64,000 nucleotides of DNA from Chlorella sorokiniana (taxonomy: Eukaryota > Chlorophyta > Trebouxiophyceae > Chlorellales > Chlorellaceae), in contig CP084611.1 in NCBI GenBank assembly GCA_025917655.1, positions 1,488,001-1,552,000 of the forward strand, written 5' to 3'. Position numbers and translations under genes: made by a program. The notes under the pieces were generated by a model. The model was not told where the DNA came from and searched no databases. It worked only from the letters and a program-made list of their open reading frames with translations. Numbering within the stretch: position 1 is the first letter of the stretch; each line of letters begins with the position of its first letter. This document shows, in pieces, positions 25,549 to 50,704 of the stretch.

Positions 25549-28500
25549 ATGGAGGTAGAGCAGCAAGCCGGTGGCCGGTGTCACAGCTTGATAGGTGAAC
25601 CATCGCAAGGCCTGACAGGAAGGCCTGCAGCAGTTGACGATGCACTTGGAGCTGGGTGGGCACCTGCCGATACTTCGATGCCTGAAGGTGTGACGCCGCC
25701 TGCCACCCAAGTGCTTTGTTGCAGTGCCGCGTCGCGAATCGCGGGGTTCACTTGATAACTCTCCTGCTTCAGGCGAGGCAGGCGCAACGGTCGCGGTTGA
25801 GGGAATGCTGGCGGACGCCCCTGATGCAGCGGAACTGGCTCCACAGCTTGGCCACGGGACCCGGCAATGCGACCAGGCTCAGCAGGGGCTAGACCAGCCT
25901 GCGACACCTGCATGCGACAACGTTGCTGGAGACGCGCTCTGCCCGGGTATGCAGCCGAGGCCGGTCGCAGAAGGGGCCGCAGCGGCGGCCACGCTGCCGC
26001 CGCCGGCAGAGGTGGCGGAGCAGGCGGCGCGGCAGGGCCCGTCGGATGGCGCTGGGGAGCGTGCGCAGCAGGGATCGCATTCTTCGGGGAGCCTGCAGGC
26101 CGGCCTTGCCGCAGCGGTGCCCTCCCAAGCAGCCCTAGCGCTGCCCGACGGGCGGGAGGCCGTCCAGGTTTTGGTGCTGGCGCCCCTGCTGGCTGCACGG
26201 CAGGCGGGAGCACGGCCGGCTCCCTCCGCTGGACTCTGCGCCGAAGGCGCTGCAGGCGTATACACGTTTGGCGAGCCCAGGCCTGATGCGGGGCAAGGCC
26301 TGAAGGGCAGCTGGCTGGCCCGGCATGTCCCGCCCTGGCCGGGCCGCCTTGCCCGCCCGCCGATCAGGCAGCGCCACAGGCGGCCAAGCACAGCCGCGCC
26401 AGCGCCAAGCTCGGCGTCGGCCTCCCCGTCGCCGCGCGGGCCTCAGACGGCCGGCTGCTGCCGCTGGGCGTCAGTGAGATGGGCCCCAGCGGCAGGTTCC
26501 GCCTGCGCATGAAGCTGGGGCAGGCAAGTGGGGCGCAGCCGCCCGCGGCATGGGCATGGGGCTGGGCAGCGTGCGCCGCCCGCTGCACCCCGCAGGCACG
26601 CCTTGCTGCTGGGGTGTTGCCTGGCAGTGCCTGTCCAAATGCTTCACTCCGCCCCCTGTGCCCCTGGCTGCCCCCTGCAGGGCCAGCCTCAGCTGCGCGT
26701 CTCCGGCTACGGCTCCGAGGCGCTGGCGGCCGCCGCTACGACCACGCCCGCATCTGGCAGGCGCTGCAGCCGGTGCAGGCGGCCGCCCGGGAGCAGGGCC
26801 TGCCTGGTGCGCCGCTGCTGCAGCTGTCGGCGGCGACGGCAGAGCTGGCGGGGCAGCTGAACGGCGACGCGGGGCGTATGCGGCGGACGCGGCGCTGTTG
26901 GGCAGGCTGGGGGTTGCGGGCGGGAGCAGCTGGAGGAGCACCTGCAGGCGGCGCAGCTGCAGGGCTGGGTGCCGTGGGCGCCGCCGCCGCCGCAGGGCTC
27001 GGCTGCGCTGCTGCGCCGGGACAACACCACCCGCTACGTGGGCGTGGCCCGCATCACTAACAGCACCAAGCTCGCAGCAGCTATCACAGGTGGGGGTGGG
27101 GTGGCCGTGGAAGGGGTGGGCAGGGGAGGGCAGGGTGGGTGGGTGTGGATTGGGTGGGTGGGTAGAGGAAGTGGGGTGCGTCTGCCTGGCAGATTACAAA
27201 CAGTACAAGACAAGGCAACCATGCTTGCATTGTTTCTCCCCAGCGCATTATTTGCGAGCTCTGCCCCCCTTCCTCCCGCAGTGGACGCCTGCCGAGAGCA
27301 CCTCGGCTCTTTCAGCACTGCAGCCGAGGCGGCGGTGGTGCGCGATGTGGGCATCATCTGGAAGCAGCTGCAAGGTGGGCGGGCGGAGGAGTGGCACGCT
27401 GGCCGCACCTCTCCCTGCGCACAATTTGCCACCAAGGAAACTTGCCGCGATGCCTGCTGCCACAGCATCCGGCCATCCTGCTTGCATGCGGACCGACCGA
27501 CATGCGCTTCCTGCCGGCGGCGCTGCAGGCATGCGTGGGGACACCCCCTCAACCTGCCGCACCTGGGGCTGGACAAGGACCCGCTGCTGGTGGCAGAGGT
27601 GCGTGTGTGTGTGTGGGGGGGGGGGGGGGCGCGCGCGGCTTTCTGGGACAGCGCTGCGGGTTTGCCTGGTGTCCCGCACACGGGTTGCGCAGAGCCGGAC
27701 ACGGGCCCAGAACCTGCCACGCACAACTCGCGCTTGCGGGAGGCATGACACAGCGCTGCGCCCCCTCTTCCCTGCAGCTGCGGGAAGCGCCCGACGTGGC
27801 TGCGCTGCGGGAGGTGCTGTCCCGCTGGGTGCCCGCCAACCTGGCGGACGTGGTGTCCTGCCTGCCGGAGGCGCGGGCGGCGGGGGCAGACGGGCAGCGG
27901 GTGAGCCTGGGAGGGGGCTGGGGCAGGCAGCGCGGCTTGTGTGGGAATTGGGGTTGCTTGCCAACAGTTTGCCATCAATCTGACGAGAAGGGGTACGGCT
28001 GGCAGGGGCGGTTTTCTGGCTGATCGGCTTCCGCGCACGACCCCAACACGACGGAAGGCCCCAAAGCGAAGGCCGATCCCACAGCTATCCACCCCCTTTG
28101 TGCCACCCGCCCTGCCCTCCAGCCGCCACGCTGGCCGACATCCTGCTGGCGACGGTGGGCGCAGGATGCGAGGCTGCCGGCCCCAACAGCAGCAGCAGCG
28201 CAGGCACAGCCCGCGAGGCTGTTGGGGATGAGGGTGTCGCAGGCGCCTGGCCCTGGACTGAGGGAGGCGTTGAGCAGGCTGGCCCCCTGGCAGCCCCAGC
28301 AGCCAGGCAGAAGGAGCGCAGGCACCAGCGGCTGATGGCACGGCGGCTGGCGCAGCCGCTGCTGGTGTTGCTGCAGGGTGGGATGAGGCAGGAGGCACAG
28401 ACAATGACGGCGATGCGCAGCCCCCGCTTCCCGTAGTTGCTGCAGCCACAAAGGAGGAGGGAGCAGCAACAGATGCAGCGGAAGGGGAGGCGCCAGGCAG

Positions 28501-31087
28501 GGGCCAGGCGAACGAGGCGGCGCTGCCACCTTGGCCTGTGCTGGCGACGACGATGAGCTGGCAGGGCAGAGAAGCAGTCCCCTGCTCTGCCCCACGGAGC
28601 AGCACCAGCTGGACCAGCAGTTGGGGCCGGGGGCGCAGGCTGGCACAGCGGCAGCTGCTCGGGAGGGTCGCGAGGAGGAGGAGCAGAGCGGTGGGCTTGA
28701 ACAGCTGCGGAGGCTGGCAGCAGACATTGTGCAAGGCAGATTGATTCGCGACGGCGCAGACAGGGAGCTGGAACGAGAGCAGCAGGAGCCGCAGCAGCCG
28801 CGTGTTGACGGCCAGTCGCGCCAATGCCTGCGGTGCGGCAGCGCCAGCAAGGGCGACGCGCCGAGGGCTTCCTGGCATCGTCACCCAGCCACTGGCGCCG
28901 AATGGCTGTGCCACGCCTGCTTCCTCAAGGCCGCTGCAGAGGCCCGCCAGCAGCGGAGGCAGCAGAACCGGCAGCAGCTGGGGGACGTGCAGGGGCAAGT
29001 TGCGGACGCAGGCGACAAGCAGCCGGGGCAGCAGCTTCAGCCGGTGCAGGCCGAGCCGCAGGCTGAGCGGCAGTGCCTGCAGTGCGGCAGTGCCAGCAAG
29101 GGCAGCGGCAGGTGGGCATCCTGGCACAGCCACCCAGCCACGGGCGACAAGTGGCTGTGCCAGCCCTGCTTCCAGGCAGCACGTACAGCAGTTAAGCGGC
29201 AGCAGCGTGAGAAGGTGCAGGAGGTTGCATCCCAGCAGGAGTCAGAGGAGGAGAGGGAAACTGAGGCAGCCGCCCCCCAGCAAAGCAGTGCACCCACTGC
29301 GGCGCGCTGCATGGCGGACGGCCAGGCACCAAGGGTGTCAACAACTGGCGGCGCCACCCCGAGACCAGGGAGTTGCTGTGCCAGCGCTGCGGAGGGTACG
29401 CAGACAGACATGGCGGAGAGCTTCCTCAGCCTGCCCCGCCAGCAGCGCCGGCTGCTGCTCCCTTGCCGGATGTTCAGCATGCAGCCGCGACGCTGCAGGG
29501 CTGGCGGCACGGGCACCTCCCCAGCTTCCTGAGCCCGCCGCCAAGCGCCGGAAGGTGCAGACGCCTGCACGGGATGCCGCAGTTGGCGGCCAGCCTCATC
29601 GAGGCAGCCGCAGGCAGAAGCGCCGCAGGGTGCAGCCAGAATATGCAGCAGGATCGCCACTCCGAGGGTCGGCTGTCACCCCCTGCCTCGCACCAGCCCT
29701 CGGATACCCCCTGCCCAATGCCGCTGCTGCCACGGGCGCAGCCGGGATTCCCGGGAGCGCAGCAGCGGAGGCTGCCGCTGGGTCGGCGCCCGCCGAAAGG
29801 GTAGGGGCATGCTGCGGCGTCGTGCTTGCCAAGCCCACGGACGCCGTGGGATGGTTGCTCGCCGGCATGTGTGCAGCGCGTGTGAACCTTGCGCTCCCCA
29901 CTGCCAGTCAGAACCCCCACCCCAACCCCTACACCCACCACCGCCGCCAACCTGTCCCCTTTCCTTGACTCAGCCGTGGAGGTCGAGGTGGATGCCCCCG
30001 CTCTGCACTCTCATTGCCTAGCTCTGCCAGGTAGGACAGTCGGCATGTGTCGCTCCAAAGCTTTCGAATGGCCCCGCACTTCACTTCCCTTTGCTCCTGT
30101 GCATGGCCAGGCAGCGCCGCGCCGCCCAGGCCCCCACCCTTCCCACCCACCCGCCCGCAGTGGCTGTTGCCGCTGAGCTGACTGGGCTGCCGGGCGGCGG
30201 CGGCGGGCGTGTGTATCTGCGGGATGCGCGCGGCGGCCAGCATTGGATCTCGTCGCTTGTGAGGGGCAGGCTGGAGGCAGAGAGTGAGAGGGAAAGGAGG
30301 GCTGTGTGGTGCCCCGCTGTCAGCAGCTCTGGTGCTGAGGGGGTGGTGGAAGACTTGGGAGGGCCGCCTGCACTCTCCACGCCTTTTCCACCTGACCGCC
30401 CCCAAGCTGCTCCTCTCCTTGTTGCACCGCCCTGCAGAGCTGTTTGCCACGCTGGGCGTGCGTGATGGAGACCGCCTGCTGCTGCACTGCCGCGGCCCAC
30501 CCGCTGCTGCCGCCAAGCAGCTGCCGCTGATTGCGGCGGTGCGCCTGCCACGCACGCTGCCAGCTGAGGAGGTGCTGCAGGAGGGAGCGCGGGCAGCCCG
30601 AGCCTCGACCCCGGGAGTGCATGTACAGCAGGGCCAAGCAGCGCCGGGCTCGGCAGCCGACTGCTGCGCAAGCGGCCTGGAGGCTGTGGGCGGCGGCGGC
30701 GGTGCCCAGCAGAGGGAGCAGCCGCAGCTGTTTGATCTGCTGATGCAGGCGTCGCACCAGCCGGCGGTTGCGGCCGAGGGGCTCACCGGAGACCTGGTGG
30801 CCAGCTTCTGCCTGGCGTACCTGCAAGACCTCTCCCAGCAGCAGCAGGACGCTTGGGTGAGAGCCGGCGCTGGCCTGCCCCAATGGCTGACCTGCCCGCC
30901 CACTACCCAGCATGCTTGGCTGCCGTCTTCAGGCTAGTTGACTGTCGTCCCATGTGCACCCCCCCACCCCCCACCCCCACCCCCCAAGAAACAGGACTTC
31001 CGCCTCCGCTTGCTGCTGCAGCATAGGCGGCACAGCTCAGCCGCGCATGCCGTTCAGGCGGCGCTGCGCAAGGCAGGCCTGGATTGA
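25549..31087 (+). CDS. Gene A: AP2-like, GATA-like fingers and B3-like domain protein
   Basis: A probable multidomain DNA-binding protein. Start 25549 (MEVEQQAGGRCHSLI) joins the second exon in frame (ATAG/GTGAAC ... CTTCAG/GC gives GEAGATVAVEG). Two AP2-like repeats follow a long Ala/Pro/Gln-rich region: GRFRLRMKLG with SGYGSEALAAAAYDHARIW (about 26,480-26,770), and TRYVGVARI with EHLGSFSTAAEAAVVRDVG (27,030-27,380). LNLPHLGLDKDPLLVAEL and PDVAALREVLSRWVPANL come next. Three C2C2 fingers lie at 28,827-28,924, 29,070-29,172 and 29,288-29,420 (CLRCGSASKG, CLQCGSASKG, CTHCGALHGG; each with WxxHPxT/ET and a second CxxC). A B3-like domain spans about 29,970-30,560 (GGGRVYLRDARGGQHW, ELFATLGVRDGDRLLLH). 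A helical tail (GLTGDLVASFCLAYLQDL) ends at TGA 31085-31087. Frame jumps are frequent. Gene B is an inverted paralogue. Confidence 0.7.
27599..27629 (+). repeat. GT microsatellite plus G-run at an intron donor
   Basis: The intron following the LLVAE exon of gene A begins GTGCGTGTGTGTG and passes straight into a run of about 15 G. The splice donor is thus the first unit of the dinucleotide array. Confidence 0.75.
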
Positions 31088-31313
31088 GGCCTGGGCAGGG
31101 CCCACCCTTGCTTGGTCTATGCAGGCCACTCCTGCTGATTGCCCTCGTCACAACGCTGCAGCTCAGTTTCCACCATCGTATTTGATGCAGCCGAGCTGCA
31201 AACGTGGACATCTTGCCCGTGCTTTGCTGTTCAGCCCTTGCGCTCGCCAGACCTCTCATGCCCCCTGGCCCGGCTCGCGCCTCACCTCCTCGACCACTGC
31301 ACAGCAGGCAAGG

Positions 31314-31318
31314 TGTAA
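31314..31318 (+). promoter_or_regulatory. TGTAA polyadenylation signal for gene A
   Basis: A plus-strand TGTAA 227 nt after the gene A stop, at a plausible distance for its 3' end. Confidence 0.4.
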
Positions 31319-31384
31319 AGACCTCGCCTGGGCGCATGCACGGCAGCAGGTGTGTCAGCCCTGCATCTCCTCCTGTCATCTCAC

Positions 31385-31580
31385 CCTTTGCAAACTCCGT
31401 CGTGCCCGCCTCATCCTCGCTCCCGGGCTCCTCCTGCCCAGGGGCGCGGTCCGTGGGATCTGTGGCCAGCGCAGCTGTCACGTGCGGCGGCAGCGGTGCC
31501 TCGGGGGCCACGCCTGGCTCCTCTGGTGGCCTTGGTGCGTGCTCCCCCTCAGGCTCAGGTGCTGGCTCGCTAGGGGGCTC
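31385..31580 (-). CDS. Candidate orphan acidic exon
   Basis: On the minus strand an acceptor-like CTTTCTGCAG precedes an open stretch encoding EPPSEPAPEPEGEHAPRPP and later DPTDRAPGQEEPGSEDEAG, ending in TEFAK before GTGAGA. G/C-ending codons and an acidic Pro-rich composition suggest coding. I could not connect it with certainty to other exons. It may be a 3' exon of the unknown gene upstream on the minus strand (31.75-34.2 kb). It lies within the downstream region of convergent gene A. Confidence 0.3.
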
Positions 31581-31751
31581 CTGCAGAAAGAGAGCGCCTC
31601 CAGCACCGGCGTGCTTGCACCCCTCTGCCCTGGCTTCAAACCGGACACGCGTGACGTGACGTGGCGGCAGCGCCCGGCACCTTGCCGTTGTGGACCCACC
31701 TTGGACGCCCGGGTTCTTGCATACGGGCAGCGCCAGGGCCTAATGGACACA

Positions 31752-34203
31752 TTAGTTGCACTCTGACGCCGGCCTGAGCCCCTGCCACCCACAACCGGCC
31801 CTAGAAAGCCTCTGTTCGGCAATGCTGGGACGAGCATTCTTTGATGTTGTGGGTAACGAAACACCTTCTCTATGCTTGAAGCAACCCCAGAAGCCTGGTA
31901 CAGAGCGAGCCTGGTACAGCGAGTTGTACATGCACCAGCTCCACATTAGTAAAGTGGAGCAAGAATGCGCGGCAGGGTCGTTGCCTAGCTGTCTGCACCT
32001 CTCAGCCCTGCCAGCCGCTAGGGACGAGCAGGCAGGAGGCACTTGAGCGTGTACAAGGCTGTGGCCCCGGCTTGGCCCCAGACCCAGCTCCCGGGCTGAG
32101 CTGCTGGCTGGCTCCGCTGACGGTGCCGACACCGAGCGGCGCTGCAGCGGGGCAAGACCCGGGGAAGCGCGCCGCTCCCTGAACGCGGCATGGCTCTCGT
32201 GCAGCGAGCGGCGCACATTGGCGCTTAGGGCGCAAGTGGCAGCAGGCGCCCTCCATCCGCCCTGCCGTCTGGCGCTGAGAGAAGGCCGGCACCCGTGCTA
32301 CTGAGCTTGCCGAGTTCTCACAGCAGGTCTGCAGCGGCTCCACCCAGCAGGCTTCCTTCCGCAGGAGGCCGGCGCCTTTGGCTGCCCGCATCATGCTGCA
32401 CACCATCCTGCCGTAAGACGTGGCCTCCCCGCCGCACCGGGCCACGTGGAGCGATACAAAGGCGCCATGTGCCACCTGCAGAAGGCAGCTTGCTGTTTCC
32501 AAGGATAGCATGCCCGCTGCACTCCTGGGCGCGAGTTCATGCCGCGGGCCCCACCAGGAAGTCGTGCAGCTCCACCAGCCCTGCACCCTGGCTGTCGCGC
32601 AGGCCCGCCTTGAACAGGACGCGCTGCAGCCGGCACTCCAGGGCCTGAAGGGGCGGGCGATTGGGGAGAACGTGGCGGCATGGCGCCGCACATAGGCAGG
32701 GGTGTGTTGGACGGGTACCGGTGCAAGGAGGGCCCACCTCAGCGTCAGCCGTGGCCAGGAGCTGCTGCTGCCTCCACTCGGCGTTCATGATTTCCAGAAG
32801 CAGAGGGCGCCGCCCTGCTTGTATGGCAGGCATGCCTGCTTGCAAAACCCATACACCTTTGCACCCTGTGTGGGCCAAAGGGCGGGTGTCGGAGTTGAGT
32901 GCATCACCAGGCGGTATCGTCCTTTGGAGGGAAGCAAAGTTGTCTGCTGCTCCACTGAAATGCCTCACCCCGGCACAGATGAGCTCCCGGGCTACCCCAT
33001 CCAGCGCAGCACCAACCGTCGCCCATCGCTGCCACAAAATACTGTCGCGGCTGACCTCCCGTTCAAGGCGCTGCGGCAGCCACCCACACCTCAAGGGTTG
33101 GCCAGGTTGAACAGGGCGAGAACCTGACAGCTTGCGCAGGGCATGGGGGCACCTCACCGCCAGGCCTTCCAGGCGAATGTTCAGCTGCGGGGCAAGGCGG
33201 TGGAGGCGCAGAGCCTGCCATAGCAGCGGGACGTTGGCTGCCATGAACTCCAAGGCTTCTGCCACCAGCCTGCCAATGATAGTCCTGCAGGCACCATGGC
33301 GGAATAAGCTCCTCGCCAGCATGGCGCAAACCACCGAGAGCGCAAGGTTGGAGGCTGGCGGTGCACAACTGCGGCAGCGCACTGCATGATGGTCCGCTGC
33401 TCCGCCTCCTCTTCCGTCTCTGGCTCCTTGGCTCCTTTCAGGTTCAGCGAGGCAGACGCCAGCGGGCCGTTGCCCCCGCGGCGCAACGTGGGACAGGAGG
33501 GCAAGCATGCCGGCGGTGGGTGCCGCCAGCAGGAGGGCCTTGAGGGTGGCCCACAGCGCGCCTTTCAGGTCATCTGCGTCTCCACCCATGTAGTGGATGC
33601 CGCTGGACATCAGCTGCCGAAGCGGTGGACAGGATGAGGACTCGGTGTGTGCTTGGCTGCTGCGGAATCGTGCACGATGCAGTGCTGCAGGATGCTGTGC
33701 TGGGCTTGCCTGTCCCAGGAGGCCATCCACGCACACACCAGTGGTGTTGGGTGCACTGTAGACCTGGCCGGGCTCCTCCTCCAACAGAGAGCCGACTTCA
33801 GGCTGCTCAAACAGCCAGCGCAACGCGTCCAGCAGCCCGAAGTAGAGGTCCGGGGGCGGGCGCGGCGCACCTGGGGCGTTGACCAGGTGCAGCATCACCT
33901 CCAAGTCAACCTGCGACAAGCAGCCGGTTGGTTAAAATCTTGCAAGCCATTGCGCCACAGTGATCATACTGGTGCCATAGGCAAACCGTACAACGACGGG
34001 TGCAGGGGTCGGGGGTCGGCGGCAAACCAAGGGCAGTAGCAGCAGGTGCCAGGTGCAGCCTTTGAGGATGCACGCCTCACCTGCTGCAAACACCCAACAA
34101 GGCCACGCAGCAGGGGTGCAGTTTCAGCCTGCACGAGCTGCAGCTCGCTCCCTGCGAGGTGACTGTCCCTGCACGAGGCCAGCTGAGCGCTCAGAACCTC
34201 CAT
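31752..34203 (-). CDS. Unknown alpha-helical protein
   Basis: I do not recognise this protein. The first in-frame Met (34203) starts MEVLSAQLASCRDSHLAG, ending LLRGLVGCLQQ/GTGAGG; an upstream exon is possible, since coding-like sequence (PPPELLAACESRLRQ) precedes the Met. Following exons encode VDLEVMLHLVNAPGAPR with LDALRWLFEQPEVGSLL, DDLKGALWATLKALLL, ALSVVCAMLARSLFRHGACR, LVAEALEFMAANVPLLWQAL, DSILWQRWATVGAALDGV, LQRVLFKAGLRDSQGAGLVE and YGRMVCSMMRAAKGAGLLR. The C-terminus is Ser/Arg-rich (RRSVSAPSAEPASSSARE). The sequence is predicted mostly helical by inspection, without signal peptide or membrane segments. The 3' end is uncertain; codon bias fades near 32,040, well before the in-frame stop at 31752. 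Confidence 0.5.
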
Positions 34204-35024
34204 TTGGCGCAGGCGTGACTCACAGGCTGCCAGGAGCTCTGGCGGGGGCAGCCACGCTGCTTCACAGTCTGAAGACCCGTCTTGTGCAGCATGGTGGCCT
34301 CAACCGTGCTAGAGCAAATCGGAAAGTAGCAGGGCTCCTATACAAGTACTGTTGGACAGGCGGAACAAGCTTGGAAAGTCACCAGCCCGGTGTGCCTTCC
34401 TGCCAATGTGTTGTCCAGCGTTCAAATTCATGTCAGCCCAGCACATAGTGTCCCATTCATCACACGTTCAGCATCATTGTTCATCAGCTCACAGAGCCAT
34501 CTGTCCCCCGTTCAGGTTTGACCGCGGTACATCTGTTGAAACTGACGCGTTTGCAGAAGCGGGAAAATACAGTTCGGTTGCATGGCGCAAAGACTCGGAG
34601 TGAAGATTGGTGGAGAGATTGTCATGAGCAGAACGAGGAAAAGCAGTAGGGACTGGCAACAGGGCCTGCACTATGAAATGAAGCCCTGAGAACAGGGCAT
34701 AGGAGCTGAAACTTCAAAAGGCATGGCAGGGGCCATACACGGGGAGCGGCACAGGCAGGTGCACCAGCGAGCGAAAATGTGCAGTGTTGCGTGTAGCAAG
34801 GTATGACCTCCAGAGCGTCATGCAGGAACCAAATTCACTGCTTGGCGGCCCGGTGGCTGCCGCATGGGAGCTTTTGAGATGCCTAGGGAGCACATGCTGC
34901 TGCATGGCTGCCCCGGCCGCCACGGCCGGCTGTATCAGCCCCTAGAGAGCACATGCTGCTGCATGGCTGCCCTGGCCGCCGCGGCCGGCTGTGTCAGCCA
35001 GATATGCGAGGTGCAGCACAGCGC
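34204..35024. other. Intergenic stretch with a 59-bp duplication
   Basis: No gene is supported. It contains the 3' flank of the phosphate transporter gene, the 5' flank of the unknown helical-protein gene, and a two-copy tandem repeat annotated separately. Confidence 0.45.
34882..34999. repeat. 59-bp tandem duplication
   Basis: Two adjacent copies of about 59 nt (34882-34940 and 34941-34999), sharing GAGCACATGCTGCTGCATGG and a palindromic GGCCGCCACGGCCGG core in which a few bases differ. The second copy ends just 25 nt downstream of the phosphate transporter stop, so it lies in that gene's 3' UTR. Confidence 0.8.
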
Positions 35025-37413
35025 TCAATCAAACACACGCTCGCCGGTGGCAAACAGGTTCCACACCACGGTGCCGACGAGGTAGAGCGCGACAGCCACC
35101 GCCCAGACCTGCGTGGTTGCGGTGGGGGCACACCGCAGCTAGTGAGCGCAGGGACGAGGCTGCCCCGCGGGCACAAGACAGCCTGGGCTCGGCGCTGTTG
35201 ATGGCACAACCAGGCCCTGGCGTGCCATACGTTTACGCATGCCCCCCTTGCGGCTCGCCTGCTTCCAGGAGCCGGTCTGCAGGATGAGGCCCGTGGCGGC
35301 GGTGCCCAGCACGCCTGCCAGCACGCCCGCGGTGTTGCTGAGGCCCAGCAGCACGCCCGCGTAGCGCGGCCCGATGTCGGCGTGGTTGCTGTACAGGCCA
35401 GACTGGGAGAAGGCGTCCAGGCCCTGCGCCGCCATCATGCAGCCCACCGCGCCCGTGACCGTGGTGATGCCCCCAGGCGGGTCAGGAAGAAGGCGGGGCC
35501 CAGGAAGCCAATCTGCGGGCGCAGCATCACAGCAGCGATGGTGAGAGTGGCGGGGTCGCGCACAGCGGCGTGCGCAGCGGCGGAGCGATCTGCCAGCCCG
35601 CCGACACGCGCGGCGCCCTCGCCGCGCGGCCGCAGCCGCTGCCGCCGCCGCGCACCGTCTGCATGATCTTGCGCACTGCCGTGACCGACAGCCCGCGCTC
35701 CACCAGGGTGTCTGCGATCCAGCCCCCACGTTGGCTGAGATGGCCATGGTGATCCAGGGCAGCACGGAGAAGAAGCCGCTGCTCTTCAGGTCCAGCCCCA
35801 GCACCTGGGTGTGCATGGGTGGGTGGGTGGAGGGGGGATCGGGTCGTTACAGCCTGCGACCGGTACACGCCCGTGCCCGCCCCAGGCTGCAGGAGGGTGC
35901 GCCGTGCAGCGGCACGCACCGCAGCGATTGGGCACGCACGCCATCGCCACCCCCCACCCCTTGCACGCGCACCTGGTTGTAGTAGGTGGGCATCCAGGTG
36001 AGTAGGATGAAGGTGCCCCAGTTGTGGCAGAAGTGGCTGACGATGAGGGCCCAGGTGGCGGGCTTGGAGAGCAGCAGGCGCCAGGGGATGGAGGTGAGGG
36101 GGCGGCGGCGGCGGTGTTGCGCGTGATGTAGCGCAGCTCGCTGTCGTCGATGCGGGGTCCAGGGAGGGGGCGGGGGCCGCCTGGCGCTGCCACCACGCAA
36201 ACCACAGCAGGCCGGCGGCGCCAAAGACGTAGAAGACGGAGGCCCAGCCCCAGGAGGAGATCATCTGCGGCGACAGCGCCAGCCCCAGCATGCTGCCGGT
36301 GTACATGCCGCTGTACACCAGCGACAGGGAGCGGCTGCGCTCCCGCACAGGCACCCACCTGCGCGGGGGAGCCAAGGAGAGGGAGGGGGGTTGAGGGCGA
36401 CGCACAAGGGGCGGAAGGCACAGAGCAAGGCCGTGCAGGCAGGAGCGGCTTGCGGCGATGCATGGCGCCCTCGCCCCGCTCCTGCTGCTCGCTGTCACGC
36501 AGCCCGGCACCCACACGCTGGCTGCCGCCGCGCTGCGCAGCAGTGCAGGTGTGCCAGGCAGCGCAGCGCGCCGCGCTGCGCAGCCGCGCCTCACTTTGAC
36601 AGCAGGTTGTTCATGGCGGGCATGGCCACCCCCCCCGATGCCCATGCACGCCCGCGCCGCCAGCAGCACCGGCAGGCTGGTGCGCGCGGCGATGGGGGTG
36701 GCCATGGTGGCCAGGCTCCACCACACCACGCCAAAGCCCAGCACGCGCTTGCCGCCAAAGCGGTCGGCCCACACGCCGCCGGCCACCTGGGTGAGCAGGT
36801 AGCCCCAGAAGAAGGAGGACTGCACCAGCCCGATGGTGGTGCTGCTCCACCCGTACTGCTGGCTGATGGGCAGGATGGCGATGGACATGTTGACGCGGTC
36901 CATGTTGCACAGCAGGAAGGCCACAAAGCACATGGCCAGGATGGTCCAGCGCCGCTTCCAGCCGGGCTTCTCCCGAGCCCTGCTGCCGCTGCTGCTGCCG
37001 CCGCTGCTGCTGCCGCCGCTCAGCTGCCCGCTGAACGAGGCGCCGCCGTCGAAGCTGCCGCTCAGGGCGGCCTCGCCGCCCCGTCGCCGCCGGGCGACAC
37101 AAACGTGGCGTGCGGCGGCGCCGGGGGCGTGACGTGGCACACGATGGCAGCCGCTGCATCGCTGCAGGCGAAGCGCGGCAACAGGAGGCAGTTCAATCGC
37201 AGCCGTGCAGAGTTTCAGGGTCGCAGGATGTGTGAGCAGGGGCAGGCGAGAGCAAGGGCGCCTGGCGGCGCCAAGAGCCCCTACCTGTGGCGGCACCTGC
37301 ACCATCAGCCCAGCCGGCGGCTGGTGGGCCATCCTATGCCCCGCTCCCACGCGGCGCCCAAGCAGCCTGCGACATGCCATCAGGGCCCAGATGGAAGGCT
37401 TCAGGCTCCGCAA
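35025..37413 (-). CDS. Plastid anion (phosphate) transporter, PHT4/ANTR family
   Basis: A major-facilitator transporter of the SLC17-related PHT4 group, which moves inorganic phosphate across plastid or other membranes with Na+ or H+. The N-terminal 130 or so residues are basic and Ser/Gly-rich, consistent with a transit peptide. Then come KRRWTILAMCFVAFLLCNMD and RVNMSIAILPISQQYGWSS, FFWGYLLTQVAGGVWADRF, GKRVLGFGVVWWSLATM and ACMGIGGG with AMPAMNNLLSK. Later exons encode RERSRSLSLVYSGMYTGSM, WGWASVFYVFGAAGLLWF, FCHNWGTFILLTWMPTYYNQ, FFSVLPWITMAISANVGG, NTAGVLAGVLGTAATG and VWAVAVALYLVGTVVWNLF. The protein ends GERVFD with TGA at 35025-35027. The core is near-diagnostic for the family. Small frame jumps occur near 36,100. 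Confidence 0.88.
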
Positions 37414-40488: not shown

Positions 40489-40902
40489 AGGCCGCCTCAG
40501 GACGAGGCTGCCTTCAAGACATGGCGTTCAAGACATGGCGTCGACGTGCGCTGAGCGCTGAGATCTGTGTAGTCCAGAAGCAGATTGACACAACTGTACA
40601 TATGTGACCATGCCTTCCCAGGGCCAAGACTTTGAAGATGTTGTAAGCGCAAACACTGGATTGTGACGAGTGGCAACCAGCTAGACAGTGCTAGAAGGAA
40701 CAAGAGAGCAAGCAGCCGGGAGAGACAGACGCAGCCGACAAGGTTTCGCTGCGCTGGGATAAGAGTGGTCATCGTCACTTTGACAAGGGCTTGGCGCAGC
40801 CCTGCCCAAGAGCACAGAGTGCAAGAACAAGATTGCAAAGGAAGGCAGCAGGGCCAGGCTGCGCGGCTGCCGCCGGTGCAGGGGGCGGGCGCCGGGGCCA
40901 CC

Positions 40903-40928
40903 CGCGGGGGTGGGGGTGGGGGTGGGGG
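40903..40928 (+). other. G-rich tract capable of forming a G-quadruplex
   Basis: Four runs of five G separated by single T or C bases on the plus strand, immediately downstream of the minus-strand gene B stop. The transcript carries the complementary C-rich sequence, so any quadruplex would form in DNA rather than in the gene B mRNA. Confidence 0.6.
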
Positions 40929-40930
40929 CG

Positions 40931-43900
40931 CTACGTGGGTGGCCCCTGGGGCTTGGGCGCCTGCTTCATGAAGGCGCCCTGCAGGAAGCGCACCAGCTTG
41001 GCGTACTCACGCCGTGCCAGCAGCTTGCGGCAGATGCGAGCCTGCGGTGGCAGGGGAATGTTGGGGGGGGTCACTGGTGGTTTTTTCGGCGGGGGGTGTT
41101 TCGGGGGCATCGGTGGAGCAGCGCATCGGGCGCCTCTCGTGCTGGCCAGCAGGGCAAGGGCGGCGGGGCGGGGGGTCAGGCAGGGGCTGGCATGGGGAGG
41201 TGCAGCGCCGCCTCACCCTGTCCTGCTGCTGCTGCTCCTTCAGGTCGTCCCAGGTGACCAGCAGCGCGCTGAGCAGGTCGTCGGTGAGGCCCGCCGCCGC
41301 CGCCGCCCCATCCTCCAGGTGCGCATCCCACAGCAGGTCCCACACAGCGCCCACGTCGGCGGCGCCGCCGCTGGCGTGCGTGGCGTCAAAGCCGCTGCCG
41401 GGGCGGCCGCCGAGGCCGGCGTCACGCCCAGTACTGCTGCCGCAGCGGCGGCGGGGCGAGGCCGTGCCAGGGGCCCCAGGCGGCCATGCCCGCCAGAGCG
41501 GGCGCATCAGGGGGTCGCCGTGGAGGGGCGCTGTCAGGGCGCGGGGTGCACCCGCTGCTGGCGCCACGGCCGGCGGGAGCGCGGGCGCTTGGGGCAGGGC
41601 CATCGCCTGGGTCGCAGGGGGCGGCGCGGCGGCGGGTGCGCTTCAACAGCGGCCGCTTCTGTCACAACCGCTGGCGCCGCTGGCGATGCACCTAGCGCCG
41701 CTAACGATGCAGCTAGCGCGGCTGGCGCGGCCGCCGAGGCTAGCCCGGCGAGGGAGGTGGGGCGCGGGATGGACGACGCCTCCTGTTCAGGTGCGACAAA
41801 GGGAGCTGCCTGAGCAAACAGGCGCTGCGCCACCGGGGCGCCGCCCCGCCCTGGGCCCTCGTGGGCTGCTGCGCGCCTGTGCCTCCGGCGGCTGCTCCTC
41901 GGCGCTGGCGGCGACGCTGGCAGGGCCCTGCGCAAGGGCAGCCGCCGCAGCAGCAGCGGGGGGCTGTGCTGCCACGTCCTCCAGCTGCTCCAGGGGCGCG
42001 GCTGGTGCGCCGGCAGCTGCTGCGTCAGCCGCCGCCTCCTCGCCCTGGGGTCCTTCGGGCGCTTCGCCAGCTGGCGCTGCGGCGGTTGCCTCCACCACTT
42101 CTGCTGCTGCTTCCTCTGCCTGATGCCCGCCTGGCGCAGCCTGCTCCTCCTGGCTGGCCCCGGCGCCCCCTGCGACACGCCAGCAGCCTCCTGCCCAAGG
42201 TCAGCGCTGGCCGCCGGCTGCCGGTCAGTCGCAGCCTGCTGAGCCTGCTCCACCTCGCCAGCCCCTCGCCACCGCCAGCTGCCTCCTGCTCCGTCTGAGG
42301 GGCAGCCTGCTCCGGCTCCGGCACTGGCGGCTCCGGCAGCCCAGCCTCGGGCGGCGCCGGCTCCTCGGCCTCGGCCCGGCCCTCCTGCGGTGCAGGCTGC
42401 TGCTGCTCTGCCAGTGCAGGTGTCGCCCGCGAGCGGGCGTCACGCCCATCGCTGCCGCCACCGTTTCCATGGCCTGCCGCCGCGCCTGCTCGGCCGGCAC
42501 GCCGCGCGGCAGCAGCGCGGCCACCAGCACGGGCAGTTTGACGCGCTTGGAACGAGGCGCCACGCGCTGCAGCAGCACGCAGTCCCCCTCCTCAGCCCCC
42601 AGCTCGGCAAACAGCCCTGCGCGGGAGGGGCAGGGGGGTAGCGGTCGCAAGGGTGGGGTGGCAGCAGCCTCCCAGGCTGCAGAGGCACGCCCACGCACGG
42701 CAGCCACGCAGTGCTGGGGTACGATTGCGGCAGGGCTGGGCGTGGGGGCCAGAAGGCAGCAGGCGCACTCTCGGCCTCCAGCGCCCTCGATCTCTGGTCC
42801 GCCAGCGCGGCCTTCCACTCCTCGTGGCTGGTGCCGCCGTGCAGGGCAGCGCACAGATACACGGTGCCAGAGGGTACGCCCATGAGCTCTTCAGCCATCG
42901 AGGCTGCACCGGGCAGGCAGCAGCGGGTGGAGGAAGTGGGGACGCCAACACAGATGCATTGTACAGCACAACGCCGCACGCTGGAGCGCCTGTGGGTTGT
43001 GGCAGCCTGTACCTGGCAGCACCAGCTGGCCTCTGCGAATGCACGCCCCGTTGATTTCCACACTCATGGCTGCGGGGTGGAGGGGGCAGGGAACAGCTGT
43101 TTGAGAGCCGCCAGCCGGGCATCTTGAGTTGGTGTGATGCAACAACACGATCGGTGAGGCAGCCGGCGCATGGGCAGCCTGAGGCGAGGCTCACCCGAAC
43201 GCTCCACATTGGCCCAGTAGCACAACCCGCCGTGGCGACCCCTCTTCCCAGGGCCGGCCAGCAGACCCTCCGCCTGTTCAGCCGCTGCATCGGCGCTAAT
43301 GCCTTCCGCCTGCTCAGCCGCTGCCTCGGCGCTGGGCTGGACTACGTGCCGCTCCGGCTGCTGCAGCTCGGCAGCCTGGGCCCCCTCGGCCCCCTCGGCC
43401 ACGGAGTGCAGCGGCTGCCTGCGCTTGCGCCCTGCCGCCTGCGGCGGCTCATCCCCGGCTTCAGCCCCCGCGTCCATCCCCGCCGGGAGGGCTCACCGGC
43501 TGGGCCGGTAGTGGCCCTGCGTCAGCCGTGTCGCGCTTGGCGCGCATGCTGCGGGTAGGAGGCCCCGCCTGCTCATGGTCTAAGGGCTCAGCTGCTGCGT
43601 GCCGCTGCGCGCGCTGGCGCTTGCTGCCCCTGGCCGCCTCGGCAGCAAGCTCTGTGGCCGCTGCCTCCTCGGCCTGCTCTTGCTGACGCTTGCCCCTTGC
43701 CTGCCGCCCCTTGCGCTGCTGCGGGAGGACGGCAGGGCAGCCTCGCGCTCCTCTGCGGGCTCAGCAGAGTTGCCGTCGCTGGCCTGCCCGCCAGCCGCAT
43801 GCCGCGCCTCCGCTGCCGATGCTCCTCCTGCCTCAGCCCCCGCCTGCTCCTGCGCCTCCTCTGCCGATGCTCCTCCTGCCTCCGCCCCCGCCTGCTGCTG

Positions 43901-46900
43901 CGCGCTCCCCCTGTTCATCCTCTTGCTGCAGGTTGGGTAACTGCCCGTGGTGGTCGCGCTCGTAGCGATAGCACTCCAAGCACAGCCACGCTTTAGTCTG
44001 GGTGTGCTGGTGCCATTTAGTTCTGGGGTTGCGGCCAGGCTTGCTGGCATTGCAGTGGCTGCAGCACATGTGGCCCTCATCAGCTGCGGCTGCCTGGCCG
44101 GCACCGACCGTGTCGAGAGCTGACACCTGCTGCTCCCTGCGCCGCTTGGCGGGGGTCCCGTCATAGGCGGCTGCCTCGACCGTCGCGTCAGCTGCGGCTG
44201 CTGAGGGTGGCGCAGCATTTGGCTGTGCCTCGACCCGCCTCACCTCCGCCTCCGTGAAGTTGGGAAGAGCGCCGCCATGTCTGTCTGCGTACCCTCTGCA
44301 GCGCTGGCACAGCAACTCCCTGGTCTCGGGGTGGCGCCGCCAGACGTTGACACCCTTGGTGCCTGGCCGTCCGCCATGCAGCGCGCCGCAGTGGGTGCAC
44401 TGCTTTGCTGGGGGCGGCTGCCTCAGTTTTTCCCTCTCCTCCTCTGACTCCTGCTGGGATGCAACCTCCCGCACCTCCTCCTCCTGCTGCCGCTTGTCCT
44501 GTGCCTCCTCCTGGAACGCAACCACCCGCACCTCCTCACGCTGCTGCTGCTTGAGTGCTGCACGGGCTTTTAGGAAGCAGCGCTGGCACAGCCACTTGTC
44601 GCCAGTGGCTGGGTGGCGGCGCCAACTTGCCCACCTGCCGCTGCCCTTGCTGGCACTGCCGCACTGCAAGCACTGCCTCTCAGCTTGCTTGCCCGGCGGT
44701 TGTTGCTCCTGCTGCTCCTCAACCTGCTGCTCCTCCCCACCCCCTGGTGTTCCCCAACAGCTTGCTGCGCATGCCCCTGCTGCTGTTCCGACTGCTGCCT
44801 AAGCAAGGCGGCTGACGCCGCCTTGAAGCAGGGGTGGCACAGCCATTCCTCGCCAGTGGCTGGGTGGAGGTGCCAGCTTGCCCACCTGCCGCTGTCCTTG
44901 CTGGCGCTGCCGCACTGCAGGCATCGGCGCAACTGGCCGCCCGCATGCGGCTGCTGCGACTCCTGCTGCTGCTCCGTGTCGCCGCCGCCCTCCTGCAGCC
45001 GCTCCTCTCCCCGCTCGGCGCCCTCCAGGCTGCCGCTCTGCAGCTCTCCCCGTTCCTGCTGAACCTGCTCAGCTTGCAAGCCCTGGCTTTTGCGGCGCTC
45101 CCACGCCAGCCTGCCACACGCGTCGCACAGCGAGTGGCCCTGCCCGTCGGGGTGGCGCCGCCAGGACCAGCTGACAGCACCGCAGGCGCTGCAGCGCCGG
45201 TCGCCTGCACCAGGGCTGACCAGCGTGATGTCCACGGTGGGCAGCCCCGGCTCGGCGGCAGCAGCCGCGCCAGCGAAGGGAGCCTTGCGCTTGCGGCCGC
45301 CGCGGCCGCCGCGGCCCGCGCGCCCAGCGTGCCTTGCAGGGGGCGGGGCTGTGGGCGCGCCCACTCGCAGCAGGATGCGGCAGCCCTGGTGCAGGCTGAA
45401 GGGCAGGGAGGCTCCTGCAGCAGCAGCAGGCGAGGGCAAGGTGGGGGAGCCCATTGGCGGAGCACACTAGCACATTCGCAACAGCAGCAGCAGGGCAGCA
45501 GCGGGATGAGCGCCAGAGCAGCCCCGCGCCAGGGCCCCCACCTGCCAGGCTGAGCGCTGTGCCGGGCACGCGCGTGACCCACTCCTGCTGGGAGGCTGGG
45601 TGGCGCACCAGCACCTCGCCGCCGAGGTCGCCAAACAGCTCAGACCAGGCCCCCCTGCAGGCGGCAGCAGCATCGTGGGCAGCTGCCGAGCAGGCTCTGC
45701 GGGGCTGAAGGCGCTAGGAGGCGGGCGGTGGGAGGAAGGGGGTTTAGGCAGCCTGCAGACTGCTGGCGGCTCACTCGGCAGGATAATCGCCTGCTGCTCC
45801 TCCTCGGCGGGCGACACGTCCTTGTGCATATCTGCGGGTGGGGGTGGGTGGGCGAGGGGCCAAGTTGCCATGAAGCCCTTGGCACAGGGCTGCAAGGGCA
45901 CAGCCGGTAAGAGGGCAAGGAAATGCGCACGGCGGCGCGCGCTCACATGAGTGCTCGTCGTCCATCCACTCGAAAGAGGGCACGTCCTCGCCAGCAGCCG
46001 CCGCCTGCAGCTGCCCCTCGTGCTGGGGGTTGGCGGCGCGGCGCACCTCCCCCACCTCCCCGCCGTCCTCCTGCACAGCGCCGCCGCCGCTGCCCTCCTC
46101 GCCCTCCTCCTGGCTGCTCTCCGCAGCAGACGAAGCATGCGGCTCCCCCCCGCTCAGCTCCAGGCCCGAGTGCCAACCCCCGTCAGCCTCGACCTCGTGC
46201 TCCTCGCTGCTGCCGCTCGAGGCGGCGGGTGCCGGGCGGCCGCTGCCGCCTTGCCCCTGGCGGCTGCTGCCGACCGGTGCTGCCCAGGTCGGGCTGCTGT
46301 CCTCCGCCTGTGTCCCCCTGCGCTTGGCTCGCTGGGCTGGCCGTCATCCTCGCTGCTGCCGTCGTCGCTCGAGATGCCCGCCGGCGCAGAGGCATCCACC
46401 ACACCCGCCACGGCTGCTGCAGACCTGCGCCGCAAGCCCCGCACACCCTCCCTTGGCTGGCGCTCCTCCTGGGCAGCCGCCTCTCCAGGCTGCCCAGAGT
46501 CCGAGGAAAGCTCTGTCTCCTCGAGAGTGGCGGGGTCCTCGGCCTGGCCCCCGCTCCGGCCGCCGCTCTGGACGCTGCCCCGGCCTCGGCCGCCGCCCGG
46601 CCGCCGCCCGGCCACGCCCACCAGCTGCGTTGCCTGCCTTGCCACGGCCGCCGCTTGCTCCCGGCCGCGGCCGCCAGCTGCTTTGCCTGCCTTGCCGCGG
46701 CCGCCGCTTGCTCCCCGGCCGCGGCTGCCAGCTGCTTTGCTTGCCTCGCCACGACCAGTGCTTGCTCCCGGCCGCGACCGCCAGCTGCTTTGCTTGCCTC
46801 GCCGCGGCTGACGCTTGCTCCCCGGCCGCGGCCACCAGCTAAGTTTTTCGCCTTGCCACGGCTGCCGCCGCGGCCGGGACCGCGCCCGTCACTCCTGCCC

Positions 46901-49900
46901 CTGCCCCTGCCACGGCCGGCATCTGAGCTGGCGCTGCTGCTGCTGCTGCGCCTGCTGACCACAGCGGCGCTCCTGCCCCGTTTTCTGCCTCTGCTGGGGC
47001 GGCTGGCGCCTTTGCCACCGCCAGCAGCGTCAGGATCTGCTGCGAGCCTGCCATCAGGGCGCTGCAAGTCTTGCTCCCTGCCCGGCGGGGGCGCGTTCTG
47101 CCCTGCACGCCTCTCGTAGCTGAAGCAGGCGGGGCACAGCAGCCTGCCGGTGAGCGGGTCCGACTGGTACTGCTTGCCCTGGTCGTCGCCGCAGCGGCTG
47201 CAGGCCCGCACCGAAGGCTGCTGGCTGCTCTCATCCGAGGTTCCCTCCTCCTCCAGCGCCTTCTTGCTCTCGTCCTCGTCCTCACTGCCAACCTCCTCCT
47301 CCCCCTCCCCCTCCTCTTCCTCCTCCTCCTCCTCCTCCCCCTCATCCTCAGAGCTGCCAGCCTGGATGTCGCCGTTCCCAGCGACTGCATGTTGCTGCAG
47401 CAGCGCAGGCGGCCGCTTGGAGCGCAATGCGCGGGCGGCAGGGGGAGGCGGACCGCCGGGCGAGCCTCCTGAGCCATACCCTCCTGAGCCTGGCACAGGA
47501 TTTTCATCAATTGGGTGTGGGGGAGGAGGGGCGGGACAGGCGGTCAAGGATCATTGCCATGCTTGGCCGCAGCAGCAGGCACACAGGGCCCCTCCCTGCC
47601 AGGGCATGTGTAACGATGCACAGGTGCGCCCCAGCTGGCACGCACCTGAGGAACCAGCGCTGGCCGCGCCCTGCAGGCCAGCCATCACAGACTGCAGACC
47701 CCGAGGCACCCAATGCTGCAGCACATGGCGCAGAGCCGCCACATCACTCGCAGCACGCAGCTGCAGAGCGGGGATGGCGCAGGAGGCACAATGTGAGGGG
47801 CGGGACAATGAGCGCAGCAGTGTGTTGACGGCGCTCCTGCCCCCCGTGCGCTGCTCATGGCTGCCCCTCACCTGCTCTGCCAGCACGCTGTCCTTGTCCA
47901 AGCTGAGGTGCGGCAGGTTGAAAGGGGTGTCGGCGGGTTTGCCTGCAGCGGTTGGGGCCAATAGCCAGGAGTTGAATAGTGCACCGCCCGCCACATGCGC
48001 ACTCAGGCTCCCACCCTGCACAGCACAGCGCTCAGGACAAGGGAGGGAGGCAGGCAGGCAGGCAGGCAGCAGGCAGGCGGGGCGGCAGCGCACCGTGAAG
48101 CTGCATCCACAGCACGCCCACATCCCGTACCACGGCCGCCTCGTCCGCGGTGTCGTACTGCCCAAGGTTTACGGCAGTGCCTTCCACTGCAAGCCACGCA
48201 TGGGGCAGTGGTGGTTGGGTCAAAGGCTCACAGAAGGAGGCTTTCGCAGCAAGCAGGCCCACAGCTAGATATGACCCCCTTACCCCCCCCGTCTGGGAAA
48301 ACGCGCACACGTACAAAGCAAGGTAACACAAGAGTGCAACAGCGGCACGAGGCACCCACCATGCAACATCGCGGACAGTTGGGCACTGCCCTGGGTGCGT
48401 TTCACACCCAAGAAACGGGTGGTGACAGCGGGGTGTCCAGCCAGGGCGCCCAGCCCGGCAGCACTCGCGGCTGCAGCTGCTCGTGCAGCTGCGCGCGGGT
48501 ACAGCCGCCCAGTTTGCCCAGCAAGCGGGTGTCGGCGACATAGCGCTGCAGGCCGTGGTTGAGCTCGCCGTTGAGGCGCTGCACCGCCGCACGCTGCCGC
48601 TCCATGTCCGCCCCCTCCTTGTCCTGCTGCAGCGCCTGCCAGATGCGGGCGTGGTCGTAGGCGGCGGCTGCCAGCGCCTCGGAGCTGTAGCCGGAGACGC
48701 TCAAGGGCTCCCGGTCCTGCACAGGGATGGGGGTGGGTGGCAATCTTCAACACGGATTGCATACACAGACCAGCTCAGCTTTGTTTGGAGCTGCCAAACA
48801 GGCTGCTGTCCTGGAGGACCGCACATGCGGGCTCCTCAATGCAGCAGCAACAAGCACCCCGTGCCAAGGTCGCTTGCCTGTTCCAGCCTGAGTTGGATGC
48901 GGAAGTGGCCGCCACCCGCAGCGTACACACCGCGCTTGCCGAAGAGCGGCAGGCGCGGGCCGCTGGACACGCGGACCTTAAACTTGGTGGAGAGGCCGCC
49001 GCCGCCCGCCTGTGCAGGATGGTGCGCAGGTTGCGCCAGGGATGGGGACGTCTCATCCGGCATGGGCGCCGCCGGTGGCTGCTGAGCCCCAGGCGGGGAC
49101 CCCGCATGGTGAGCAGGTGACGCAGCTGCAGCAGCAGGCTCCTCATTCTGCGCATCCGCTGCAGCAGGGTCTGCCGCGGGCTGCTCATCCGCTGCAGCCT
49201 CCGCTGCTGGCTGCTGGGCTGCTGGGTCTGCAGGCGGCAGCGGGCGCGATTCGACCTCCGTGCGCGTTGCTGCCAGTGCCTGGCCGTCCGCCGCTGCAGA
49301 CGGCGCCTGTGCCACCTCCGCCTCCACCCCCGCTGCTGCGGGCTGCTGCTGCTCCGCGCTGCCCTCCTGCTCCGACGCCCCATGCCCTGCTGCAGCAGCC
49401 AGGGGCTCCCATGCAAACGGGTGGGATGCTCCAGGGGCAGCAGGCTGCTCCCCCATTCCATCAGCCGCGGCCTGCGCTGTCGTAAACCACGGCGGGGCGG
49501 CTCCAGGATGCTCCCCTCCGGCCGGGGCTGGGAGCGACGCCTCCGCAAAGGGTGCCGTCGCGAGAGCTGCGGCGACCTCATGCGGCGTCAGCGCTTCGTA
49601 ATTGCTGGGAAGGGGCAGAGGGGGCCCCACCACGGGCAGCACAAACTGTTGAGCCGCCAAAAACAGCTCTGCCGGCCAGGCCGCCGCCTCTTCCCCAGCA
49701 GCCACCTGCCCCACCGCTGCGCCTGATGCCGCTGCGACCTGATCAAGCTGCTTCGCGCCGGCCTGCCGCGACGTGTCCCTGCCACGGACACGGCCCCGGC
49801 CACCAGAGGAATGCTGCTGTGAGGGAGGACGCATGGGGGCTTCCAACTGGCTGCCAAAGGCGAAGACGTTAGGGCCAGGCGGCGGCGCCTGGCCAAAGGC

Positions 49901-50704
49901 GTAGACGCGATGGGCAGCGGGGGCAGGGGCACGGCACCGAAGCCCTGTGCCAGGGGCGCCGCCACGCCGATGGGTTGCTGCAGCACTGCAGACGCAGCCA
50001 CGCTGCTTGCAGGCTGCGGCGGAGCGGCGGACTGCTCATCACCCGCCGGCCCCAACACCACTGCGCCCACGCCGCCAGTGGGTGCCGGCGCCCCGCCAGC
50101 TGGCTGGTCTGGTGTCGTCACCAGGACCGCAGGTGGCTGCTGCCCCTGCTGCGCCTGCAAACTGCGAGTTGTGCCGTTTGCGGTGCCTGCGTTGTTCTGC
50201 TGCATCTGGTGGCTTCCGGAGTCGGCAGCGCTGCCAGAATCTGTGAGTCCTGCAATCAAAACAAGGCACAATCATCAAAATGATGAGCGGCAGGCAAAAA
50301 CACGAACAAGATATCAGGCTGGCACGGTTGGCAGTGCGTGTCATTGCCCACTGTATGCCACCCACCTGTGCGCTGCCGCGCGGCAGCAACAGCCTGCTCT
50401 GCAAACAGCTCGGCGTCGTGCACGGCGGCTGCAATGTGCTCAGCCGCCACTGCCCGCGGCAGGGAGGGCGGCCCTCTGGCGATGCCGGCTGCTGCGTTGC
50501 TCGGGCGCTCCGGGGGAAGCATGGGCATGTTGGTCCCTGGCTCTTCCACGTCGTGCAGGAACTGGGAGATGGCGTTGAGGCTGCCCACCTGCTGGTGCAG
50601 GGGTTGGGCCCCGGGCCAGCGGGGAAGCCAGCCGCCCCACCCGCCGCCTCTGCAGCGGCTGCTTCAGCCACTGCTAAGCTGCGAGGCCCGCTATCTGCTA
50701 TCAT
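40931..50704 (-). CDS. Gene B: large AP2-like, GATA-like fingers and B3-like domain protein
   Basis: Inverted paralogue of gene A. The start at 50704 gives MIADSGPRSLAVAEAAAAE. After a long Ala/Gln/Pro-rich region come two AP2-like repeats: GKRGVYAAGGGHFRIQLRL with SGYSSEALAAAAYDHARIW (48.99-48.6 kb), and TRFLGVKRTQGSAQLSAML with VNLGQYDTADEAAVVRDVG (48.43-48.1 kb). HLSLDKDSVLAEQ follows. A C2C2 finger (CSRCGDDQGK...CPAC) is at 47.2 kb, then an acidic run, a 54-bp-unit GRGR repeat, and B3-like domain 1 (GEVLVRHPASQQEWVTRV, FSLHQGCRILLRVG; about 45.65-45.35 kb, joined by a clean phase-1 intron). Five more fingers occupy 45.2-43.95 kb; CSACGAVSWSWRRHPDG...CDACG has the C-x2-C-x18-C-x2-C spacing of plant GATA fingers. 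B3-like domain 2 (GVPSGTVYLCAALHGG, LFAELGAEEGDCVLLQ) and a helical tail end at 40931. It could be two genes, but splicing through B3 domain 1 argues for one. Confidence 0.65.
46621..46840 (-). repeat. 54-bp tandem repeat coding for 18-residue GRGR units
   Basis: Units start at 46621, 46674, 46728 and 46781, with a partial one at 46835, giving spacings of 53, 54, 53 and 54 nt. The 54-nt copies have four C where the 53-nt copies have three (in CTTGCTCCCCGG). On the gene B strand a unit reads like RGEASKAAGGRGREQ, resembling AT-hook-type GRGR segments. Confidence 0.8.

Follow-up and report, generated by a model that had tools for sequence, protein, structure and literature searches.

Two probable paralogues in a Chlorella genome may join AP2-, GATA- and B3-like domains in a single regulatory protein

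AP2, GATA and B3 proteins are usually counted as separate families of transcription factors. The closest described systems to the locus considered here include two-repeat AP2 proteins such as WRI1, and the apicomplexan protein SIP2 (6sy0), which has a tandem AP2 structure and is not known to contain GATA or B3 parts. Land-plant RAV proteins (RAV1, TEM1) possess a single AP2 domain followed by a B3 domain. As far as the relevant parts of two papers go, descriptions of RAV-type proteins are limited to streptophytes (PMC11685440, PMC5873896), RAV and ARF B3 domains are confined to that group while chlorophytes carry ABI3/HSL- and REM-like B3 domains (PMC11685440), and AP2+B3(+PB1) proteins occur in charophytes while chlorophytes have B3 or PB1 in separate proteins (PMC5873896). 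Among the full-text literature matches listed, a coverage outside which most subscription papers fall, there was no report of a protein combining AP2, GATA and B3 domains.

A stretch of 64,000 nucleotides from Chlorella sorokiniana (hereafter the window; G+C content about 68%), on contig C1 (CP084611.1) of a 38.8-Mb genome assembly in 15 contigs, contains two convergent genes, A (25549-31087, plus strand) and B (approximately 50591-40931, minus strand, with an uncertain 5' end), with further open reading frames (ORFs) in between. Two joined PsaD exons match PDB chain 6zzx across all 114 residues at 241.9 bits, compared with 203.1 bits for the next single-domain chain (the summed score of a three-domain fusion chain, 9vfj, is higher), and the chains nearest to a CP26-like exon are 8bd3 and 9hd7; as 6zzx and 8bd3 are Chlorella ohadii entries, these matches point to a probable Chlorella-clade trebouxiophyte host. 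Both genes present the same succession of parts, namely a pair of AP2-like repeats, then C2C2 fingers, either one or two B3-like parts and a helical tail. Our best explanation, to which we assign a probability of roughly 0.6, is that A and B are diverged paralogues in opposite orientation, representing a single gene family in a green alga of the Chlorella clade, and that they encode a multi-domain AP2, GATA and B3 DNA-binding regulator, for which we infer the fold in part, and binding and function altogether. The observations that count against this explanation are given below, together with the alternatives that they favour. On this explanation the genes are multi-domain plant-type regulators outside the RAV, AP2/ERF and GATA families, in which we do not place them because the defining features or curated cut-offs of those families were tested and failed: in the pieces scanned, none of the curated Pfam cut-offs for the AP2, GATA and B3 models (PF00847, PF00320 and PF02362), proposed as a check in the first-pass annotation of this DNA, was passed, and genome-wide scans with each of the three models gave no hit inside the window. 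That annotation had also proposed three DNA-binding folds in one chain; the AP2-like and GATA-like identities are supported and the joining of AP2 repeats to a finger is shown in a relative, whereas the B3 identity has only moderate support and we infer its linkage.

The annotation's comparison with land-plant RAV proteins is sound as a resemblance, in that AP2 and B3-like parts occur in one gene and the AP2 domain of TEM1 ranks among the top structure matches for a relative described below, yet it does not extend to membership. The window genes have two AP2-like repeats, GATA-type zinc fingers in between and one or two B3-like parts, against a single AP2 domain and then B3 in RAV, and RAV membership is thus ruled out. 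Given that RAV proteins are described, in the source passages cited above, only from streptophytes, the window genes would represent an independent AP2+B3 combination. They share two repeats with WRI1-type proteins, and differ from these in a strongly diverged repeat 1, a linker of about 70-90 residues between the repeats, and the fingers and B3-like parts that follow.

Aligned over the region that begins with AP2-like repeat 1 and ends with the tail, A and B are 49% identical. In each, repeat 1 contains a GC-AG intron and repeat 2 a phase-1 intron, and both carry an exon with an NLPH motif and a conserved LRxAxDVAALRxVLxxWVP exon. Read by eye, intron ends are GT..AG or GC..AG for 13 introns of B and 10 of A, and intron positions match between the two. 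The identity, the matching introns, a dN/dS ratio of 0.52 and an independent relative (both treated below) place this likeness beyond chance. The motifs named in the first-pass annotation are present and in coding order, and the shared order of parts that it described is likewise confirmed, although the two genes are not equal: gene A has three fingers and one B3-like part, gene B six and two, so that three fingers and one B3-like part are missing from A. The parts are as follows.

25549-26287, plus strand: gene A N-terminal exons (first ATG at 25549, the putative start codon; intron at about 25687-25773; from ORF reading and intron ends)
26443-26773, plus strand: gene A AP2-like repeat 1 (GC-AG intron 26524-26680 inside; frame break at 26737)
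27020-27568, plus strand: gene A AP2-like repeat 2 (three exons; NLPH motif at the end)
28825-29390, plus strand: three GATA-like C2C2 fingers of gene A, at 28825-28920 (x24), 29074-29169 (x24) and 29289-29390 (x26)
29537-29632, plus strand: AAKRRKV and RRQKRRRV, basic stretches of gene A (resembling nuclear signals by eye)
29974-30556, plus strand: gene A B3-like part (three exons)
30719-31087, plus strand: gene A tail (helical by eye) and stop codon
48878-50591, minus strand: gene B N-terminal exons (an ATG at 50704 is possible, in frame only with a further splice)
48630-48967, minus strand: AP2-like repeat 1 of gene B (interrupted by GC-AG intron 48877-48717)
47908-48423, minus strand: gene B AP2-like repeat 2 (three exons)
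47125-47202, minus strand: finger 1 of gene B (C-x2-C-x18-C-x2-C; with an acidic run before it)
45353-45980, minus strand: gene B B3-like part 1 (four exons; the weakest assignment)
45116-45193, minus strand: finger 2 of gene B (C-x2-C-x18-C-x2-C; shares an open exon with finger 3 and the end of B3-like part 1)
43971-44923, minus strand: gene B fingers 3-6, at 44923-44828 (x24), 44672-44577 (x24), 44399-44298 (x26) and 44063-43971 (x23)
42501-43069, minus strand: gene B B3-like part 2 (three exons; intron sites as in gene A)
40931-41360, minus strand: gene B tail (helical by eye) and stop codon

B3-like part 1 of gene B is without a counterpart in gene A. Basic stretches resembling nuclear signals are seen by eye in gene B also. 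The coding stretch of gene B additionally holds a tandem repeat of 53/107 bases (window 46607-46868), the period of which is no multiple of three, such that the reading frame rotates through it.

The AP2-like signatures reported at first pass are both present: SEALAAAAYDHARIW is unbroken in the gene B exon 48716-48429 and needs a frame change at 26737 in gene A, and TAxEAAVVRDVG occurs in A (27284-27376) and in B (48184-48092). A profile of repeat 2 places AP2/ERF chains in positions one to four among PDB matches, the second repeat of WRI1 is the top PDB match of the AP2-like part, and in hhalign comparisons repeats 1 and 2 both match AP2. A protein search further recovered a relative, P0001 (E 9.9e-47), an uninterrupted ORF of 639 amino acids on a 2426-base contig, which probably comes from a transcript assembly, since its C-terminus resembles adaptor sequence. 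P0001 contains the two AP2 repeats, an acidic run and a single finger, arranged as in gene B, and the chain stops there. The predicted P0001 structure, modelled from an alignment of nine rows in which some short fragments were misplaced by the aligner, shows in repeat 2 the three-stranded sheet and packed helix of the AP2 fold, and WRI1, TEM1 and ERF1 are among the matches listed in a fold search. Consequently, the AP2-like identity of the repeats appears well supported by profile comparison and, in P0001, also by predicted structure.

PF00847 was absent from the pieces of A and B scanned, and repeat 2 of P0001 reached 16.3 bits against a cut-off of 33.3. A wider AP2-like family was not found in this genome: a search with the AP2-like block gave 9 matches, all of them in A or B. 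Protein searches for further relatives returned, beyond P0001, only P0002 (an exon of gene A itself) among the best 7982-7999 candidates scored in each, a negative that is weak because only those candidates were scored. A viral source was considered and rejected, none of 98 pattern matches in viral contigs being confirmed as an AP2-like relative. Chance resemblance of the AP2-like and finger parts is ruled out by the profile, structure and hhalign matches.

The protein might carry these folds and yet serve in chromatin or RNA work rather than as a sequence-specific transcription factor. Toxoplasma mitoribosomal proteins are among the structure matches of the AP2-like part, and the residues with which ERF1 contacts bases are, in a comparison by eye, mostly lost in repeat 2. 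We consider such a role unlikely, however, given the occurrence of several DNA-binding folds together, the basic stretches resembling nuclear signals, and the acidic runs in gene B and P0001.

Under the preferred explanation, of a DNA-binding regulator, the product would be a large protein in which long linkers, acidic and of low complexity, connect two AP2-type repeats, between three and six GATA-type fingers and either one or two B3-type domains. It would most probably act in the nucleus as a sequence-specific regulator in contact with several short motifs simultaneously, binding composite DNA sites through several of its domains, while its acidic and helical parts could recruit partners.

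The fingers are compared most readily with those of GATA factors. A single gene B finger with exact C-x2-C-x18-C-x2-C spacing had been reported; there are in fact two (47202-47125 and 45193-45116), while the longer loops ascribed to the others are borne out in the remaining seven (four in B, three in A), which have x23, x24 or x26. Loop lengths thus run x18, x18, x24, x24, x26, x23 in gene B and x24, x24, x26 in gene A, and the GATA spacing C-x2-C-x17-20-C-x2-C is found in 2 of the 9 window fingers and in the finger of P0001. The spacing of B fingers 1 and 2 and of P0001 is that of GATA class IV fingers, and a WRRHP core is shared with a GATA gene of this genome; in contrast, the x23-x26 loops of the other seven depart from GATA factors, and lie outside the tabulated plant GATA types, in which loops reach x20 or x21 according to the portion of the source that covers them (PMC11608367). 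GATA factors take first place in profile comparison of the fingers, and the P0001 finger conforms to the GATA fold in its predicted structure. Scores for PF00320 remained below the cut-off of 26.8 bits (19.0 for the best window finger, 12 for P0001). A GATA-like identity therefore seems well supported by profile comparison, and in P0001 by modelled structure also.

The GATA gene just mentioned (L009, G000:C1:3318555-3318662) has a finger scoring 42.6 bits in an open frame shared with a piece that by eye resembles part of a SET domain. Weak relatives of the window fingers occur in an array on contig C6 (G000:C6:2207247-2241432, L050-L053) of tandem genes, each with one short-loop and one long-loop GATA-like finger. 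Motif filtering yielded 35 finger matches there in 40 kb, on the minus strand throughout, and part of the array resembles, in spacing and matching letters, a nearly exact 5.57-kb duplication.

The B3-like part is the least secure of the three. The two B3-like motifs named at first pass, RVYLRDARGGQHW (30166-30282) and LGVRDGDRLLLH (from 30440), were both located, in gene A. It is doubtful, in our judgement, that the part is instead another small beta-barrel (e.g. AbrB-like), which would leave a protein of AP2 and GATA parts only, though several results point that way. PF02362 was not listed for the A and B pieces scanned at E up to 10, and hence lies below its curated cut-off; a PDB sequence search with the three B3-like copies at E up to 10 returned no B3 chain, the best match being FeoA (E 0.44); and LVLP..A..L is reminiscent of the AbrB hairpin. 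Fold searches gave no B3 chain among the matches listed, from folded queries that excluded the B3-like parts. The hhalign probabilities are also low. Against four PDB B3 domains 68 columns aligned (P 0.021, probability 2.3%), and against nine the landmarks LP, G..W and GD aligned in order, with scores of 17.8 for the A/B pair (2.5%; reached by 0 of 200 decoys), 21.4 for all three copies (9.3%; 1 of 200) and 12.6 for B3-like part 1 of gene B alone (0.4%; 27 of 200). Adding two of this genome's B3 genes gave scores of 18.4 (3.4%; 1 of 150 decoys) and 23.6 (19%, E 0.0012; 0 of 150). A non-B3 barrel is nevertheless countered by the alignment of 61-68 B3 core columns with LP, G..W and GD in register, by the shuffled decoys, nearly all of which these scores beat, and by reversed B3 profiles, which reach only 9.7-10.6. 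We therefore regard B3 identity as likely but unproven, the profile support being moderate and suggestive. Elsewhere in this genome are two partial hits to PF02362, below the cut-off, with the core GW..F..GD. The window part shares the B3 core pattern with chlorophyte B3 genes (ABI3/HSL- or REM-like), and differs from them in residing in a gene that bears fingers and AP2-like repeats and in being missed by Pfam.

That AP2 repeats and a GATA-type finger belong to one chain is demonstrated by the uninterrupted ORF of P0001. The B3-like part would share their transcript judging from genomic exons, from which the RAV-like order of AP2 and B3 in one chain was read; that the fingers connect with B3-like part 2 is suggested by exon phases and by an order of parts common to both diverged copies. 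Each locus might alternatively hold two adjacent genes, one encoding an AP2x2 and finger protein and the other a finger and B3-like protein, retained side by side after duplication. In favour of such a division, P0001 joins the AP2 repeats to one finger only, and in gene B several frame breaks separate finger 6 from B3-like part 2. It appears quite unlikely, however, as introns with GT-AG or GC-AG ends (by eye) join the exons in both copies, and B3-like part 1 sits between fingers 1 and 2, its end sharing one open exon (45412-44741) with fingers 2 and 3. Moreover, TGTAA, a polyadenylation signal, occurs on the gene A strand between 24800 and 32500 at a single site (31314, past the tail), although none was found on the gene B strand from 51500 to 38300; by a rough estimate chance would provide one or two.

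A single-chain reading of either gene depends on frame changes that the first-pass annotation had not mentioned, at ten joins in gene B and at least five in gene A, with further unresolved ones in B from 42158 to 41360. These breaks would be expected if one or both copies were decaying pseudogenes. Between A and B, dN is 0.23 and dS 0.45 (13 hand-picked ungapped blocks, 315 codons), giving a dN/dS of 0.52 (bootstrap 0.37-0.68), which denotes no strong constraint; the ratio exceeds 1 in two of the 13 blocks (a linker and one B3 piece), and dS is saturated in two. Nonetheless, homopolymers of at least four bases lie in 9 of the 10 gene B break windows, against an expectation of 4.7 for length-matched random windows within the two genes (P 0.0036). 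With a minimum run of five bases there was no significant excess (4 windows against 2.0 expected, P 0.11), and gene A has homopolymers of at least four bases in 4 of 7 break windows, a raw count given without a computed expectation. Two conserved genes are broken also: a PHT4-like MFS transporter at 37.2-35.1 kb of the window (minus strand, family assigned by eye) loses its frame twice, at runs of G, and two neighbouring pieces of an HSP70 gene (C3:1270819-1270971 and 1270967-1271083) overlap in different frames, leaving no room for an intron. Given the homopolymers at the breaks of B and these two broken genes, assembly errors probably account for a large share of the breaks; decay strikes us as rather improbable, and the coding blocks of A and B appear to be under moderate constraint.

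The next gene after B (40470-38571, minus strand) carries SRAAAEAAYDLAKIK, a stretch that by eye is AP2-like, has no Pfam hit and finds one weak match on contig C7 (E 7.2e-4). Behind it comes a CW-type zinc finger (PF07496, E 0.001), which at 19.5 bits stays below the cut-off of 27.5. Elsewhere in the window are a 59-base unit in two head-to-tail copies with 93% matches (34882-34999) and, at 52.1-55.7 kb on the plus strand, a gene that by eye, and with an FSVTIPHK motif, belongs to the shikimate pathway (dehydroquinase/shikimate dehydrogenase-like).

There is in our estimate an even chance that A and B represent a new green-algal regulator family, in which three plant-type DNA-binding folds, in up to ten units, form one chain, with an AP2-B3 join independent of that in streptophyte RAV proteins. 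If so, the presence of an AP2+GATA+B3 protein in a chlorophyte would mean that the AP2+B3 combination arose more than once. Pfam-based counts of transcription factors in Chlorella-like algae could then miss strongly diverged members, as the pieces scanned here passed no AP2, GATA or B3 cut-off and the genome-wide scans were empty at this locus. Such a family would also offer a concrete system for how several DNA-binding folds divide work in one chain.
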